DNA from: Thiohalophilus sp.
Lineage (GTDB): Bacteria; Pseudomonadota; Gammaproteobacteria; UBA6429; Thiohalophilaceae
NCBI RefSeq assembly: GCF_034522235.1
Contig: NZ_JAXHLN010000003.1
Span: 558,001-622,000 of the forward strand
DNA: 64,000 nucleotides
Direction: 5' to 3'
The translations under genes and the position numbers were made by a program. Of this stretch, positions 15,325 to 24,000 are shown piece by piece. Under the pieces are notes generated by a model. That model was not told the origin of the DNA. It did no database searches and saw nothing but the letters and a program-made list of their open reading frames with translations. The first letter of the stretch is position 1. Each line of letters begins with the position of its first letter.

Positions 15325-16383
15325 TTATACAATGGGCGGCTCGGCATCGGGGGGGCTGCCGGGATCGGTGTCGGGCTGGTGCTGTTCGGTGAACTCCTCG
15401 ACCCGGGCAGTGACGGTCTCCAGTTTGCGATAGCGGGCGATATGGAACAGGGCGTCGCCCTCGTTGGCCAGCGGCAGGTTGGTGCGGCCGATCACGATGC
15501 CGTCACAGGGGGCGTGGATTTCCATTTCATGCTCACCAAAGGGATCGGCCAGGATCCCGAGCAACTGGTCCTTTTCCACACTGCCGCCCAGCGGCACCAT
15601 GGTGCGCAAAATGCCCCCGGCCGGGGCCCGTACCCAGCTGCTGGCCCGGGCGTACAGGGGCTTGTGCTCGCGCTGACGCCGGCTGCGGGAGGGCGGCAGC
15701 ATCTGCAAATGGCGCATGACATTGGTGATGCCCTTGAGCCCGGCGCGGATACTTACCTCGTCAAAGCGCAGCGCCTCCCCGGCTTCATAGAGCAGCATGG
15801 GGATGCCCTTTTCCGCCGCGGCCTCGCGCAGGGAGTTGTCGCGCAGATCGGCATTGAGGATGACCGGCACGCCAAAGACGTGGGCCAGATCGGCGGTCTG
15901 CGGATCATCGATGTTGGCGCGGATCTGCGGCAGGTTGGTACGGTGGATGGCGCCGGTGTGCAGATCAATGCCATGGGTGCTTTGCTCGACGATCTCGTGC
16001 ATGAACTGGTAGGCCACCCGCGCGGCCAGGGAGCCGCGCTCCGAGCCGGGAAAACTGCGATTCAGATCGCGCCGGTCGGGCAGGTAGCGCGATTGCTGGA
16101 TAAAGCCGTAGACATTGACGATGGGGATGGCAAACAGGGTACCGCGCAGGCGCTTCAGCGCCGGGAGCCGCAACAGCCGGCGGATGATCTCCACGCCGTT
16201 GAGTTCGTCACCGTGCAGGGCGGCGCTGACAAACAGGACCGGGCCGGGTTTCTTGCCGCGAATGACCTGGACCGGCATGGCCACCTGGGAGTGGGTATAG
16301 AGCCGGGCAACCGGCAGATCGAGCGTGACCCGGCTGTTACGCGGGATTCGGTTACCATTGACGGAGATGAACTCGGCGTCCAT
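15325..16383 (-). CDS. M14-family zinc carboxypeptidase (succinylglutamate desuccinylase/aspartoacylase type)
   Basis: Zinc-dependent deacylase of 352 aa. Zinc ligands are visible as H57 and E60 in SAALHGDELNGVE and H142 in GIDLHTGAIH. The C-terminal ~90 residues form a lipoyl/biotinyl-like beta domain (ARASSWVRAPAGGILRTMVP, HAPCDGIVIG). It is the last gene of a minus-strand trio after rimB and rimK, four bases from the rimK stop. Such proteins are repeatedly found with RimK, so a role in trimming or recycling glutamylated substrate is plausible, but the true substrate cannot be read from the sequence. Confidence 0.85.
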   Translation of the reverse strand: MDAEFISVNGNRIPRNSRVTLDLPVARLYTHSQVAMPVQVIRGKKPGPVLFVSAALHGDELNGVEIIRRLLRLPALKRLRGTLFAIPIVNVYGFIQQSRYLPDRRDLNRSFPGSERGSLAARVAYQFMHEIVEQSTHGIDLHTGAIHRTNLPQIRANIDDPQTADLAHVFGVPVILNADLRDNSLREAAAEKGIPMLLYEAGEALRFDEVSIRAGLKGITNVMRHLQMLPPSRSRRQREHKPLYARASSWVRAPAGGILRTMVPLGGSVEKDQLLGILADPFGEHEMEIHAPCDGIVIGRTNLPLANEGDALFHIARYRKLETVTARVEEFTEQHQPDTDPGSPPDAEPPIV

Positions 16384-16387
16384 CGAC

Positions 16388-17293
16388 TCAACCCTTGCCC
16401 CGCGTCTTGGTTTTGTGGGGTTTGGCGGACTTGTCTATGAAGTCGATGATCTGGCCGGCCACATCCTTGCTGGTGGCCAGCTCGATCCCCTCCAGCCCCG
16501 GCGAGGAGTTGACCTCCATGATGACCGGTCCGTGGTTGGAGCGCAGGATGTCCACCCCGGCGACATTCAGGCCCATAGTCTTGGCGGCGCGCACTGCCGT
16601 GGAACGCTCTTCCGGCGTCAGCTTGATGACCTTGGCCGAACCGCCGCGGTGCAGGTTGGAACGAAACTCGCCTTCCTTGGCGGTGCGCATCATCGCGGCC
16701 ACGACCTTGTCGCCGATGACCAGGGCGCGGATGTCCGAGCCGCCGGCCTCCTTGATGAACTCCTGGACCAGAAAGTTGGCGTTCAATTCACGAAAGGCAT
16801 CGATGACGCTTTCCGCCGCCTTTTTGGTCTCGGCCAGTACCACGCCCTTGCCCTGGGTGCCTTCCAGCAGTTTGACCACCAGTGGCGCGCCGCCAACCAG
16901 TTGAATAAGATCGCCGGTGTCGTCGACATCATGGGCAAACCCGGTCACCGGGAGTCCGATCCCCTTGCGCGCCAGCAGTTGCAGGGAGCGCAGTTTGTCC
17001 CGCGAGCGGCCGATGGCGACCGACTCATTCACGGGATAGACGCCCATCATTTCAAGCTGGCGCAGTACGGCGGTGCCGTAAAAAGTGATCGAGGCGCCGA
17101 TGCGCGGGATCACCGCATCAAAACCTTCCAGCTGTTCGCCCCGGTAATAGATGCCGGGCCGCATGCTGGTGATATCCATATAGCATTTGAGCGGATTGAC
17201 CACACTGACTTCATGACCGCGCGCCTTGGCGGCTTCAGCCAGACGACGGCTGGAATAGAGTTTTGCGTTCCGCGACAAGATCGCAATTTTCAT
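16388..17293 (-). CDS. rimK: RimK, ribosomal protein S6 glutamate ligase
   Basis: ATP-grasp ligase that adds glutamate residues to the C-terminus of ribosomal protein S6 (and can make polyglutamate). The 301-aa length equals E. coli RimK. Visible features are [40 protein letters not shown], the ATP-grasp loop [20 protein letters not shown] and metal-binding [15 protein letters not shown]. It lies 48 bases after rimB and four bases before the M14 gene, in one minus-strand operon. Confidence 0.93.
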
Positions 17294-17341
17294 ACGGACT
17301 CCGGGGATTCGAGGTAGTACGGTTGGATAGTGTAACCTGTC

Positions 17342-17788
17342 TTAGCGAGCGGGCCTATGTCCGGTCAGGTAAGAGGCTTGCGGGTCGACCACAAACCGCC
17401 CGGCCAGGGCAGTGCGCCCGAGCAACATGCGAAAGCGCATGCTGTCCCGATTGGTCAGGGTCATCTCGATCTCCCAGCACAGGTCGCCCAGGCAGGCTTC
17501 GGTGCTGATCACGAAGCGTTCTTCCTTGTGCCCGCCGGAGTCGGTAACCGTGCGCTGATCCAGTATCGGGCAATGGCACTCGACGATCTGTTTCGAGTTA
17601 TGTTGTACAGGATGGATCTTGAAACGGATCATGTTGACACCCTGTTCCTGATACGCTTCCAGATCAAAGGTATGCAGGGCCGAGCTGCGGGCCCCGGTAT
17701 CGATCTTGGCCTTGATATGCTCAATGCCCAGTTTGGGTAAGCGAACCCACTCGCGCCAGCCGATTATTTGCTGCTTGTCTGTGGACAT
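17342..17788 (-). CDS. rimB: RimB-type ATP-dependent zinc protease (retropepsin-like)
   Basis: 148-aa protein with a pepsin-like D30-T31-G32-A33 motif in IKAKIDTGARSSALHTFDLE and a second strand set near MLLGRTALAGRFVVDP, typical of the single-domain retropepsin-like family next to rimK. In Pseudomonas the RimB homologue is reported to modulate RimK-dependent S6 glutamylation. First gene of rimB-rimK-M14, with a good promoter 34-62 bases upstream. The family name is confident; the activity is from the literature on relatives. Confidence 0.82.
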   Translation of the reverse strand: MSTDKQQIIGWREWVRLPKLGIEHIKAKIDTGARSSALHTFDLEAYQEQGVNMIRFKIHPVQHNSKQIVECHCPILDQRTVTDSGGHKEERFVISTEACLGDLCWEIEMTLTNRDSMRFRMLLGRTALAGRFVVDPQASYLTGHRPAR

Positions 17789-17904: not shown

Positions 17905-18759
17905 TCAGGACTGGATGCCAAGATTTTTCCAGATCGCCAGGGTCGGAGCGGACTGGTTCATACAATAGAAGTGCAGTCCGGGCGCACCGGCCTCGAGCAG
18001 GGTGTGGCAGAGATCGGTAATGACTTCTTCGCTAAACTGTTTGATCGATTCCTTGTCGTCGCCGAAATCGTCGAGACGCTTGCGGATCCAGCGCGGGATA
18101 TCGGCGCCACACATATCCGAGAAACGCGATAATTGCTTGTAGTTGGTGATTGGCATGATACCGGGGATGATCGGAAGATCGATATTCATCTGCTCGCACT
18201 CATCGATAAACCGGAAATACGCATCCGGGTTAAAGAAGTACTGGGTGATCGCGGTGTTGGCACCGGCTTCCACCTTGCGTTTAAAGTTTTTCAGATCGTC
18301 CGAGGCAGACGGTGCCTGGGGATGGATCTCCGGATAGGCCGCTACTTCAAGCTCGAAGTAATCGCCGGTCTCGACGCGAATGAACTCGACCAGTTCATTG
18401 GCATAACGGAGTTCGCCAGGGCCACGCATGCCCGAGGGCATATCACCGCGCAGGGCCACGATACGCTTGATGCCGTTTTCCTTGTAGCGGTCGAGCAGAT
18501 CGCGCAGCGTGTCCTTGGTCGCACCAATACAGGACAGATGCGGTGCAGCGTCATCACCGGATTTCTGGATTTCAACGACGGTGTCAAACGTCCCCTGCTG
18601 GGTACTGCCGCCGGCACCGAAAGTCACCGAGTAATACCGCGGCTGCATGCCTTTGTTCAGGTTTTTGCGGACCTTGCGCAGTTTCTCCGCCCCTTCTTCC
18701 GATTTGGGCGGGAAAAACTCCACGCTATAAACGGGGGTATGTTTCTTTTGTGATTCCAT
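17905..18759 (-). CDS. metF: MetF, 5,10-methylenetetrahydrofolate reductase
   Basis: FAD enzyme reducing methylene-THF to methyl-THF, the methyl source for remaking methionine. It is 284 aa, a (beta/alpha)8 barrel with YSVEFFPPKSEEGAEKLRK, YYSVTFGAGGSTQQGTFD, ALRGDMPSGMRGPGE, AAYPEIHPQAPSASDDL and TQYFFNPDAYFRFIDECE, all standard for MetF. It lies 88 bases after ahcY, beyond a strong terminator, so it probably depends on read-through or its own promoter. With metK and ahcY it rebuilds the activated methyl cycle. Confidence 0.95.
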   Translation of the reverse strand: MESQKKHTPVYSVEFFPPKSEEGAEKLRKVRKNLNKGMQPRYYSVTFGAGGSTQQGTFDTVVEIQKSGDDAAPHLSCIGATKDTLRDLLDRYKENGIKRIVALRGDMPSGMRGPGELRYANELVEFIRVETGDYFELEVAAYPEIHPQAPSASDDLKNFKRKVEAGANTAITQYFFNPDAYFRFIDECEQMNIDLPIIPGIMPITNYKQLSRFSDMCGADIPRWIRKRLDDFGDDKESIKQFSEEVITDLCHTLLEAGAPGLHFYCMNQSAPTLAIWKNLGIQS

Positions 18760-18847: not shown

Positions 18848-20266
18848 TTAGTAACGATAATGTTCAGACTTGTACGGACCTTCAACCGGGACACCGATGT
18901 AGTCGGCCTGTTCCTGACTCAACTTGGTCAGCTTGGCGCCAATCTTGCCAATGTGCAGGGCGGCAACTTCTTCGTCCAGTTTCTTCGGCAGTACATACAC
19001 GCCGAGCGGATAGTTTTCCGGCTTGGTGAACATTTCGATCTGGGCAACGACCTGGTTGGTGAAGGAGTTGGACATCACGAAACTCGGATGGCCGGTACCG
19101 CAACCCAGGTTCACCAGACGGCCTTCGGCCAGCAGGGTAATGCGCTTGCCGTCGGGGAAGATGATCTGATCGACCTGCGGCTTGATGTTGATCCACTCGT
19201 ACTTACGCAGGCTTTCGACCTGGATTTCGTTGTCGAAGTGACCGATGTTGCAGACGATAGCCTGGTCTTTCATGGCCGCCATGTGGTCGTGGGTGATGAT
19301 GTCCTTGTTACCGGTAGTGGTGACAAAGATATCCGCCTGACCTACCGCTTCGTCCAGCGTGACAACACGGTAACCTTCCATCGCGGCCTGCAGGGCGCAA
19401 ATCGGATCGATTTCGGTAATCCAGACGTTGGCACCGAGACCGCGCAGGGACTGGGCGGAACCCTTGCCGACGTCACCGTAACCACAGACCACGGCAACTT
19501 TACCGGCGATCATGACGTCGGTGGCACGCTTGATGGAATCCACCAGCGACTCACGGCAGCCGTACAGGTTATCGAACTTGGATTTGGTGACAGAATCATT
19601 GACGTTCATGGCCGGGAACAGCAGTTCGCCCTTGTTGAACATCTGGTACAGGCGATGCACACCGGTCGTGGTTTCCTCGGTAACACCCTTGACGGACTCG
19701 GCCATCCTGGTCCACATACCCTTGTTCTTTTCGAAGTTGCGTTGCAGTACACCCAGTACGGCACGGAATTCTTCGTTTTCTTCCTTGGCGGGATCCGGCA
19801 CAGCACCGGCCTTTTCAAATTCCACACCCTTGTGAACCAGCAGCGTGGCATCGCCACCGTCGTCCAGGATCATGTTCGGCAGTTCGCCGTTGGGCCAGGT
19901 CAGTACCTGCTCGGTGCACCACCAGTATTCTTCCAGGGTTTCACCCTTCCAGGCGTAAACCGGAATGCCCTGTGCGGCGATAGCGGCAGCGGCATGGTCC
20001 TGGGTAGAGAAGATATTACAGGACGCCCAGCGTACTTCGGCACCCAGTTCAACCAGGGTTTCGATCAGCACGGCGGTCTGGATGGTCATGTGCAGGGAGC
20101 CGGTGATGCGGGCACCCTTGAGCGGCTTGTCTTTGCCGTATTTTTCGCGCAGGGCCATCAGGCCGGGCATTTCGGTTTCGGCGATATCCATTTCCTTGCG
20201 ACCGTAATCGGCAAGGCTGATGTCCGCGACTTTGTAATCTGTAAAGTCTTTAGGAACAGCGTTCAT
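18848..20266 (-). CDS. ahcY: AhcY, S-adenosylhomocysteine hydrolase
   Basis: NAD-dependent enzyme that splits SAH, the inhibitory product of methylation, into adenosine and homocysteine. The 472-aa length includes the ~40-residue bacterial insertion ([20 protein letters not shown]). Other marks are the NAD-binding [40 protein letters not shown] and the C-terminal SEHYRY. It is preceded by an SAH riboswitch, so its expression should rise when SAH accumulates. It lies downstream of metK and diverges functionally from the betaine methyltransferases, which release three SAH per betaine. Confidence 0.97.
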
Positions 20267-20319
20267 GTTGTAGCTCCGTATATATTTACGGTGAGCGCCG
20301 TTGTTTATTTAGACTGGGT

Positions 20320-20418
20320 GGTCTGAGCCTGACCCCGCTACTCAATCCTGTCTCATCCAGCACGTCTGACGTGTGACAAAACGGATTGAGTAGCGTGGCT
20401 GCAGCGCTCCTCAGCTCC
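20320..20418 (-). promoter_or_regulatory. SAH riboswitch upstream of ahcY
   Basis: Read on the minus strand, CTGAGGAGCGCTGCA is followed by a long hairpin and then GGTCAGGCTCAGA. These match the conserved core of the S-adenosylhomocysteine riboswitch: P1 is CTGAG/CTCAG, and GAGGAGCGCTGCA and CAGGCTC are the invariant segments. The variable stem is exceptionally long here, with GCTACTCAATCC and GGATTGAGTAGC perfectly paired and an inner CACGT/ACGTG hairpin. Known members turn on ahcY when SAH binds. It ends about 53 nt before the ahcY ATG. Confidence 0.9.
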
Positions 20419-20440
20419 CCAGTGAATTCTTGATGGTTAC

Positions 20441-20470
20441 ATTATAGTAGGGGGAGGTCGAACCTCCCCC
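20441..20470 (-). promoter_or_regulatory. GC hairpin after metK followed by a -10-like TATAAT
   Basis: GGGGGAGGT and its complement (20450-20470) form a perfect stem with a tiny loop just after metK. On the minus strand it is followed at once by TACTATAATG, containing a consensus TATAAT (20441-20446) about 25 nt before the riboswitch. There is no T-tract, so termination of metK is uncertain. I see no good -35 at the right distance. ahcY transcription may therefore start here, keeping the riboswitch in a short leader. Confidence 0.5.
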
Positions 20471-20485
20471 GAAAACCGCATTTTA

Positions 20486-21646
20486 TCAAATACCGGCTGC
20501 TTTTTTCAGCTCTTCGGCCTTGTCGGTCTTCTCCCAGGGCAAATCCAGGTCTTCGCGACCGAAGTGACCATGGGCTGCCGTGGGGGCGTACATCGGGCGT
20601 AGCAGGTCCAGCATCTTCACCAGGCCACCGGCACGCAGATCGAAGTGTTCGCGTACCAGTTCCTCGATGCGCTCCTCGGAGACCTTGCCGGTACCGAAGG
20701 TGTCAACCGAGATAGAGGTCGGTTCGGCCACGCCGATGGCATAGGAAACCTGGATTTCACAGCGCTTGGCCAGGCCGGCGGCAACAATGTTCTTGGCCAC
20801 GTAACGACTGGCGTAGGCGGCGGAACGGTCTACCTTGGACGGATCCTTGCCGGAGAAAGCGCCGCCACCGTGACGACCCATACCACCGTAGGTATCCACG
20901 ATGATCTTGCGGCCGGTCAGACCACAGTCACCTACCGGACCACCGATAACAAAACGGCCGGTCGGGTTGATATGGAACTTGGTGTCCTTGGTGATCCAGC
21001 CTTCAGGCAGTACCGGCTTGATGATTTCGTCCATCACGGCATCCTGCAGGGTCTTCAGATCGATTTCCGGATTGTGCTGGGTGGACAGTACGACGGCGTC
21101 GACACCCACCGGCTCGCCCTTGTCATAACGGAAGCTGACCTGGCTCTTGGCATCCGGGCGCAACCACGGCAGGGTGCCGTTTTTACGGACTTCGGCCTGA
21201 CGACGCACCAGACGATGCGCATAGGTGATCGGCGCGGGCATCAAAACGTCGGTTTCATCGGCGGCATAACCGAACATCAGGCCCTGGTCGCCGGCGCCCT
21301 GTTCCTTGTCGTCGCCTTCATCCACGCCCATGGCGATATCCGGAGACTGCTTGTCCAGCGCGACCATGACGGCGCAGGTTTCCCAGTCAAAGCCCATGTC
21401 AGAGCTGTTGTAACCGATTTCCTTGAGGCGTTCGCGCACGATAGTCGGCATATCGATTTGCGCGGTGCTGGTGATTTCCCCTGCCAGGATAACCATGCCG
21501 GTATTGATCATGGTTTCACAGGCGACACGGGATTTGGGATCCTGCTCCAGCAGCGCGTCGAGAATGGAATCGGAAATCTGGTCAGCGACCTTGTCCGGAT
21601 GACCCTCGGATACGGATTCAGATGTAAAGATATATTTCTCAGCCAT
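20486..21646 (-). CDS. metK: MetK, S-adenosylmethionine synthetase
   Basis: Makes SAM from methionine and ATP. The 386-aa protein has the family signatures [20 protein letters not shown] near the N-terminus, [12 protein letters not shown] (near residue 118), [20 protein letters not shown] and [26 protein letters not shown] precedes the ATG. It diverges from the glycine betaine methyltransferase genes across a ~700-bp region and leads the methyl-cycle genes ahcY and metF. I looked for known SAM riboswitch cores upstream and did not find one. Confidence 0.97.
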
Positions 21647-22348: not shown

Positions 22349-23164
22349 GTGACCCAAGAAAAGAAAACGCAAGATTTTGGTAAGAATCCTTTAGATGTCC
22401 GTGATACGGATCACTACAAAGACGAATATGTCTCCGGCTTCGTAGACAAGTGGGACGAGCTGATCGACTGGGACGGCCGCGCCAACAGCGAGGGCGACTT
22501 TTTTATTCGCCTGCTGCAGGAACACGGTGCCAAGAAGGTGCTGGACGTGGCAGCCGGGACCGGCTTTCATTCCGTGCGCCTGCTGGAGAGCGGCTTTGAA
22601 GTCACCAGCGGTGACGGCAGCCCCGAAATGCTGGCCAAGGCGTTTGAAAACGGCCGCAAACGCGGACACATCCTGCGTACCGTGCATGCCGACTGGCGCT
22701 ATCTGAACAAGTCAGTACATGACCTGTACGACGCTGTCATTTGCCTGGGTAACTCCTTCACCCACCTGCATAGCGACAACGATCGGCGCAAGACCCTGGC
22801 CGAGTTTTACGCCACCTTGCGCCATGACGGTATTCTGATTCTGGACCAGCGTAACTATGACGCGCTGCTGGATCATCAGGTACAGCCGACGCATAACTAC
22901 TACTATTGTGGTGATAATGTGAAGGCGAGTCCGGAGCATATCGACGAGTCTCTGGCCCGTTTCCGCTACGAGTTCCCGGACAATTCCACTTTCCATCTGA
23001 ATATGTTCCCGCTGCGCAAGGAGTATGTGCGCAAGTTGATGCGTGACGTTGGCTTCCAGAAAGTGACCACCTACGGTGACTTCAAGGAAACCTACCGTGA
23101 AGCCGAGCCGGACTTCTTCATTCACGTAGCCGAAAAACGCTATATCGAAGGGGAGAACGAATGA
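22349..23164 (+). CDS. gsmt: Glycine/sarcosine N-methyltransferase
   Basis: Methylates glycine to sarcosine and then dimethylglycine with SAM, the first half of de novo betaine synthesis in halophiles. Starting at GTG 22349 (AAGGAAAACGAC in front) gives 271 aa, matching Ectothiorhodospira/Halorhodospira GSMT (about 268); the open frame runs 38 codons further upstream, but those residues do not look conserved. Motifs: KNPLDVRDTDHYKDEYVSGF, SAM loop VLDVAAGTGFHSVRLLESGF (from residue 64), FENGRKRGHILRTVHADWRY and ILDQRNYDALLDH. It overlaps the next gene by ATGA. It gives the organism a major osmoprotectant. Confidence 0.95.
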   Translation: MTQEKKTQDFGKNPLDVRDTDHYKDEYVSGFVDKWDELIDWDGRANSEGDFFIRLLQEHGAKKVLDVAAGTGFHSVRLLESGFEVTSGDGSPEMLAKAFENGRKRGHILRTVHADWRYLNKSVHDLYDAVICLGNSFTHLHSDNDRRKTLAEFYATLRHDGILILDQRNYDALLDHQVQPTHNYYYCGDNVKASPEHIDESLARFRYEFPDNSTFHLNMFPLRKEYVRKLMRDVGFQKVTTYGDFKETYREAEPDFFIHVAEKRYIEGENE

Positions 23165-24000
23165 GCAAGAGCTATTCCGATGTCGTAGAAACGGCCCGCG
23201 ATTATTACAACAGCGAGGATGCCGATAATTTCTATTTCCACGTCTGGGGTGGCGAGGACATTCACATCGGCCTGTATCAGTCCGAGGATGAGCCGATTCG
23301 TGATGCCAGCCGGCGCACCGTCGAGTACATGGCTTCCAAGATCCAACTCACGCTCGACGCCGACAAAAAGGTGCTCGACATGGGGGCCGGCTACGGCGGC
23401 GTGGCCCGCTACCTGGCCAGGACCTATGGTTGCCAGGTGGTCGCCCTGAATCTGAGCGAGCGGGAAAACGAGCGCGATCGCAAGATGAACCAGGAACAGG
23501 GTCTGGACCACCTGATCGAGGTGTGGGACGGCAGCTTTGAATCGGTTGCTGCCGACGATGCCAGCTTCGACGTGGTCTGGTCACAGGATTCCATCCTGCA
23601 CAGCAGCGAGCGGGCCAAAGTGGTCGCCGAAGCCGCGCGGGTGCTCAAGCCCGGTGGCGAGCTGATCATGACCGATCCGATGCAGGTCGACGACTGTCCG
23701 GAGGGCGTGTTGCAGCCGGTCTACGACCGGATTCACCTGCCCTCACTGGGGTCCATCGAGTTTTATCGCGAAGCGGCCAAACAGAACGGTCTGGAAGAGA
23801 TCGAAGTGGAGGAGATGACCGAAAACCTGGTCAAGCACTACGGCCGGGTTCGTCGCGAGCTGGAGCAGAATCGTGACAGCATCACCGACAAGGTCTCCGA
23901 TGCCTATATCGATCGCATGATCACCGGCCTGGGCCACTGGGTCGACGCCGGCAGCAAGGGCTATCTGCGCTGGGGCATCCTGCACTTTCGCAAGGCGTAA
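23161..24000 (+). CDS. sdmt: Sarcosine/dimethylglycine N-methyltransferase
   Basis: Completes betaine synthesis by methylating sarcosine and dimethylglycine to glycine betaine with SAM. The 279-aa protein is a class I methyltransferase with HVWGGEDIHIGLYQSEDEPI, SAM loop VLDMGAGYGGVARYLA (from residue 71), SQDSILHSSERAKVVAEAAR and LKPGGELIMTDPMQVDDCPE, all typical of SDMT from halophilic gammaproteobacteria. It overlaps GSMT by four bases, so the pair should be made in fixed ratio. Confidence 0.95.
   Translation: MSKSYSDVVETARDYYNSEDADNFYFHVWGGEDIHIGLYQSEDEPIRDASRRTVEYMASKIQLTLDADKKVLDMGAGYGGVARYLARTYGCQVVALNLSERENERDRKMNQEQGLDHLIEVWDGSFESVAADDASFDVVWSQDSILHSSERAKVVAEAARVLKPGGELIMTDPMQVDDCPEGVLQPVYDRIHLPSLGSIEFYREAAKQNGLEEIEVEEMTENLVKHYGRVRRELEQNRDSITDKVSDAYIDRMITGLGHWVDAGSKGYLRWGILHFRKA

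Follow-up and report, generated by a model that had tools for sequence, protein, structure and literature searches.

The locus and its genes

The window, by which we mean the whole 64-kb stretch of DNA that was analysed, carries on its minus strand, in this order, metK, a riboswitch, ahcY and metF, with two methyltransferase genes divergent beyond metK:

17905–18759, minus strand: metF, methylenetetrahydrofolate reductase (TIGR00676, 319 bits, cut-off 294)
18848–20266, minus strand: ahcY, adenosylhomocysteinase (TIGR00936, 645 bits, cut-off 498)
20486–21646, minus strand: metK, methionine adenosyltransferase, upstream of the riboswitch (TIGR01034, 617 bits)
22352–23164, plus strand: glycine/sarcosine N-methyltransferase (NF051855, 495 bits, cut-off 350)
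23161–24000, plus strand: probable sarcosine/dimethylglycine N-methyltransferase (best match NF041675, 453 bits, under the cut-off of 550)

The first-pass annotation had placed the riboswitch directly before ahcY, and we found ahcY and then metF immediately downstream of it. Excerpts from PMC4239095 describe these two as core genes of SAH-riboswitch regulons and report that SAH riboswitches do not control metK; the position of metK upstream of the element agrees with its lying outside such control. The methyltransferase genes suggest that the host would produce large amounts of SAH through betaine synthesis. The contig of the congener G001 that carries the riboswitch also has a glycine/sarcosine methyltransferase gene, about 2 kb away from it.

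Several other features were observed nearby. On the same strand and 3′ of metF (15325–17788) lies a gene for a RimB-like retropepsin (132 bits, under the cut-off of 200), followed by open reading frames that, read from their translations by eye, resemble RimK and a succinylglutamate-desuccinylase-like protein. Directly 3′ of metK, a perfect hairpin without a T run (GGGGGAGG-TTCGA-CCTCCCCC, 20470–20450) is followed by TATAAT at 20446–20441, and hairpin and TATAAT are nearly identical in G001. The two may mark the 3′ end of metK and the promoter of ahcY. No −35 box fitting this TATAAT was seen by eye, a promoter scan gave one weak match (20509–20480), and no tRNA genes were found in the window.

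The riboswitch core and its predicted switch

An SAH riboswitch had been proposed here from the core consensus, with a covariance-model search as the check. Run on the window with cmscan, that search supported the proposal, giving a full-length match to RF01057 (SAH riboswitch; model positions 1–78) on the minus strand at 20418–20286, with 44.7 bits against a gathering score of 37 and an E value of 5.1e-5. RF01057 was the sole family over its gathering score anywhere in the window, and this ahcY-leader locus was the one RF01057 match in the genome at E ≤ 0.001. The elements of the leader, all on the minus strand, are as follows:

20286–20418: SAH riboswitch aptamer, RF01057 model 1–78 (cmscan)
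20418–20423: outer helix around P1, 5′ strand ACTGGG (minimum-energy fold; identical letters in G001)
20401–20413: 5′ core TGAGGAGCGCTGC, containing the P1 5′ strand and the pseudoknot 5′ strand (exact core match)
20409–20402: pseudoknot 5′ strand GAGCGCTG (8-bp pseudoknot helix by duplex fold)
20332–20400: extended P2, 69 nt between the two core blocks
20383–20395: P2 outer 5′ arm CGCTACTCAATCC, 13 bp perfect with 20348–20336 (inverted repeat)
20361–20373: P2 inner hairpin CACGT-CAG-ACGTG (fold and sequence)
20336–20348: P2 outer 3′ arm GGATTGAGTAGCG (inverted repeat)
20325–20331: 3′ core CAGGCTC (exact core match)
20327–20323: P1 3′ strand CTCAG, overlapping the 3′ core (RF01057 match)
20313–20318: outer helix around P1, 3′ strand CCCAGT (minimum-energy fold)
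20293–20301: pseudoknot 3′ strand ACGGCGCTC (RF01057 match; duplex fold)
20273–20296: candidate expression platform, GCT (20296–20294) and CCGTA (20291–20287) pairing with TACGG-AGC (20280–20273) over the Shine–Dalgarno GGAG (20277–20274) (duplex fold, −9.3 kcal/mol)

In a motif search the three conserved core blocks (GAGGAGCGCUGC, CAGGCUC and ACGGCGCUC) were all exact, with 0 mismatches, and the two blocks named in the first-pass annotation, TGAGGAGCGCTGC and CAGGCTC, lie on the minus strand at 20413–20401 and 20331–20325. The interval it had assigned to the riboswitch, 20320–20418, takes in P1 and P2 but leaves the pseudoknot 3′ strand (20301–20293) outside, the Rfam span running from 20418 to 20286. 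Pairing of the 5′ core with this downstream strand gave an 8-bp pseudoknot helix with one G–U pair and a duplex energy of −14.2 kcal/mol, a value that reflects sequence complementarity only. The leader (20440–20250) folded at −74.6 kcal/mol, compared with −49.1 ± 4.1 kcal/mol in 200 dinucleotide shuffles, none of which was as low (z = −6.2), and its minimum-energy fold adds a helix outside P1, ACUGGG/CCCAGU, between 20423–20418 and 20318–20313.

The SAH riboswitch class was reportedly founded by Wang et al. in 2008. The element shares with RF01057 the core blocks, P1, P2, the pseudoknot and the position before ahcY–metF, and differs from it in the length of the P2 segment. The SAM/SAH riboswitch likewise binds SAH, according to the abstract of PMC7367207, but is reported only before metK in Rhodobacterales in PMC4239095; the window, by contrast, exceeds the gathering score of RF01057 alone. 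We conclude that the element is, by its sequence, a member of this known class with an enlarged peripheral stem and not a new class, and its aptamer would, as a family member, bind SAH.

Ligand binding to an SAH riboswitch turns expression on via the ribosome-binding site. We examined a corresponding platform by pairing the pseudoknot strand plus 7 nt with its own Shine–Dalgarno/start region, compared with the regions of other leaders. From the 207 leaders parsed in the survey described below, 15 lacked a downstream ahcY match and 18 of the remaining 192 fell outside distance limits, leaving 174. Pairing with the own partner averaged −7.62 kcal/mol across these, against −6.41 ± 0.11 kcal/mol in 200 permutations, none of which was as low; for 43 non-redundant leaders the values were −7.18 and −6.31 kcal/mol (0 of 5,000 permutations as low). 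The signal was uneven, in that 55% of the 174 leaders paired better than their own swap mean and 7 of the 43 own partners ranked in the best 10%. It also required strand and flank together: with the pseudoknot strand alone there was none (1,583 of 5,000 permutations reached as low a value), and with the flank alone it was weak (183 of 5,000). For the window itself the preference was modest, the pairing at −9.3 kcal/mol being equalled or bettered by 10% of 40 swaps (rank 0.12 among the 43), and that of G001 was matched by 25% of swaps. The CCGUA/UACGG pairing of the window is still possible with the pseudoknot formed.

In its minimum-energy fold, the window leader pairs ACGGCG with ahcY codons 2–5 instead. 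An off state in which the pseudoknot 3′ strand is held by the first ahcY codons (ACGGCG/CGCUGU), mimicking the pseudoknot 5′ strand, would fit this fold and that of the G001 leader, which has the same pairing, as well as the AACGC that 104 of 192 leaders have after their start codon. The real codons nevertheless paired more weakly than synonymous recodings across the 192 leaders (−7.66 versus −8.10 kcal/mol), and 55% of 500 recodings were as good in the window. We rejected first-codon pairing, which fails this synonymous-codon control, and regard it as unlikely to form the off state. Since own-partner pairing was better on average and first-codon pairing failed its control, we favour an ON direction with translational control through release of the Shine–Dalgarno sequence. 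In the mechanism we propose, SAH building up, for example from betaine synthesis, would bind the aptamer of P1, P2 and pseudoknot and stabilize the helix between GAGCGCUG and CGGCGCUC. In the absence of SAH, the ahcY Shine–Dalgarno region would be paired with the pseudoknot 3′ strand and its downstream flank, which would keep translation low; with SAH, this strand would be withdrawn, so that AhcY (and MetF) could be made and SAH removed.

Length, conservation and origin of the P2 stem

The variable stem had been described as far longer than usual, with a 12-bp perfect outer stem and an inner hairpin. Outer stem and inner hairpin (20373–20361) are both present, but the outer stem comprises 13 bp rather than 12. 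The length was compared in 212 RF01057 loci fetched from three overlapping surveys (kin, order and class), in which 44 of 58, 38 of 40 and, among the matches listed, 168 of 370 genomes had a match. In the class survey, 25 genomes with weak best matches were searched again, and the weaker second copy of two-copy genomes (for example, G132) may be missing. All but five loci were parsed (207 of 212); L055, L066, L068, L069 and L273 did not fit the motif expression, and L069 comes from a genome with a betaine gene. Over the parsed loci the median length of the P2 segment was 17 nt and the 95th percentile 46 nt, which makes the 69 nt of the window the fifth longest of 207 and bears out the description of its length. 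P2 reached at least 50 nt in 9 of 207 loci (the script gave 10; L217, at 51 nt, was set aside as a mis-parse), with a predicted paired fraction of 0.64 to 0.88 in the nine. Long-P2 SAH riboswitches were not found in the literature at title and abstract level among the matches listed.

Two loci stood apart. In L113 (704–850), P2 is short and the linker contains a long palindrome, CTAGTGTCTGAAT...ATTCAGACACTAG, which could be a small inserted element. L115 (2752–2979), from a Thiohalomonas denitrificans MAG, has all three core blocks around a P2 of about 180 nt. No match in L115 exceeded the RF01057 gathering score, its single SAH match having 20.9 bits and a shifted, partial span. RF01057 can thus lose members with a very long P2, and surveys with this model, the present one included, may undercount them.

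The riboswitches of G001 (L039) and G073 (L054/L100) also have a long P2, each with 12 of 15 in-register arm letters identical to those of the window; their P2 segments measure 50 nt, a near-perfect hairpin, in G001 and 73 nt in G073, and the inner parts of both are unlike that of the window. Between the window and G001, the 16 in-register P2 pairs counted from the base contained two double changes that keep the pair and one single-side change, with standard pairs in 16 of 16 positions in G001 and 15 of 16 in the window. This comparison of two sequences points to a P2 helix kept by selection. An in-register GCTA...AATC, whole or in part, is common to the 5′ arms of the window's genus, G073 and L090, and is weaker in G015 and G163. 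Shuffling gave arm-likeness P values of 6.5e-5 for the window and G073 and 0.0009 for the window and L090, which are optimistic, because the compared pairs had been selected post hoc. That the long P2 with this arm is one recurring module, spread between ahcY lineages and adding a function under heavy SAH load (protein docking, RNA stabilization or salt-robust folding), appears very unlikely.

We mapped long P2 onto a tree of 104 AhcY proteins built by a quick maximum-likelihood method, with nine rows labelled long P2; L113 was taken out of the long label, the P2 of L115 was manually assigned a length of 180, and the long-P2 genomes G200 and G397, from which only short stretches had been fetched, are absent from the tree. 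The label required eight changes for its 9 of 104 rows, at least six of them forced by well-supported branches. Shuffled labels required a mean of 8.8 changes and 98 of 500 shuffles were as low as 8, so the long-P2 label is not clustered on this tree. Because long P2s sit on separate AhcY branches, the expansion looks recurrent and peripheral, rather than marking a new class, and P2 seems to have lengthened several times. The AhcY of the window's genus (18848–20266) clusters with L074 and with Chromatiaceae (Halochromatium, Thiocystis and Thiorhodovibrio), apart from most of the family to which the genus belongs, f1. That family's 29 rows required 11 changes on the tree, at least six of them forced, and ahcY may have been transferred together with its riboswitch.

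Alternatively, an ordinary SAH riboswitch could have received a MITE- or REP-like palindromic mobile element in its P2 loop and retained it. This would account for the palindromic stem, for the scattered lineages with a long P2 and for the palindrome that L113 carries elsewhere in its own riboswitch, in the linker that precedes the pseudoknot 3′ strand. The window's stem had no second copy in G000 or in eight other long-P2 genomes, where searches returned only matches to riboswitches and hits at chance level, and the L115 and L090 stems each occurred once in their own genome. The pattern of the P2 3′ arm occurred with at most one mismatch in 42 of 370 class genomes, and nothing pointed to a repeat family. 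Of the four genomes with an exact hit, G000, G001 and G073 have it at the riboswitch and G342 at another site. We rejected a dispersed palindrome inserted in P2, the stem searches having given the riboswitches themselves and chance-level hits only, and consider an origin from a mobile element highly improbable. We infer that P2 tolerates added length and that its long form is a peripheral enlargement, dispensable for the sensing logic; it may perhaps aid folding or RNA stability.

The long P2 and betaine synthesis

We also compared P2 length with the presence of glycine/sarcosine methyltransferase genes. P2 segments of at least 50 nt were commoner in genomes with such a gene (5 of 21 riboswitches) than in others (5 of 186, one of them the mis-parse; Fisher P = 0.0012), and the association had Fisher P values of 0.007 at a threshold of 40 nt and 0.024 at 60 nt. 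A second function of the long P2 in heavy-SAH hosts, as a protein-docking site, an RNase III site or an aid to salt-robust folding, would agree with these counts and with the in-register GCTA...AATC arms in several long P2s. Against this, a rank test on the same rows gave P = 0.08, the comparison is uncorrected for kinship (two rows represent one genus), P2 was short in 16 of the 21 riboswitches and the arm pairs were chosen after the fact. We regard a second function as quite unlikely, and the link between long P2 and betaine synthesis as a lead only.

As a whole, the best explanation, to which we assign a probability of roughly 0.65, is an SAH riboswitch in the ahcY–metF leader that acts as a translational ON switch and has a long but peripheral P2. 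The recycling operon would then carry its SAH sensor beside the betaine-synthesis cluster, the setting in which removal of SAH should count for most.
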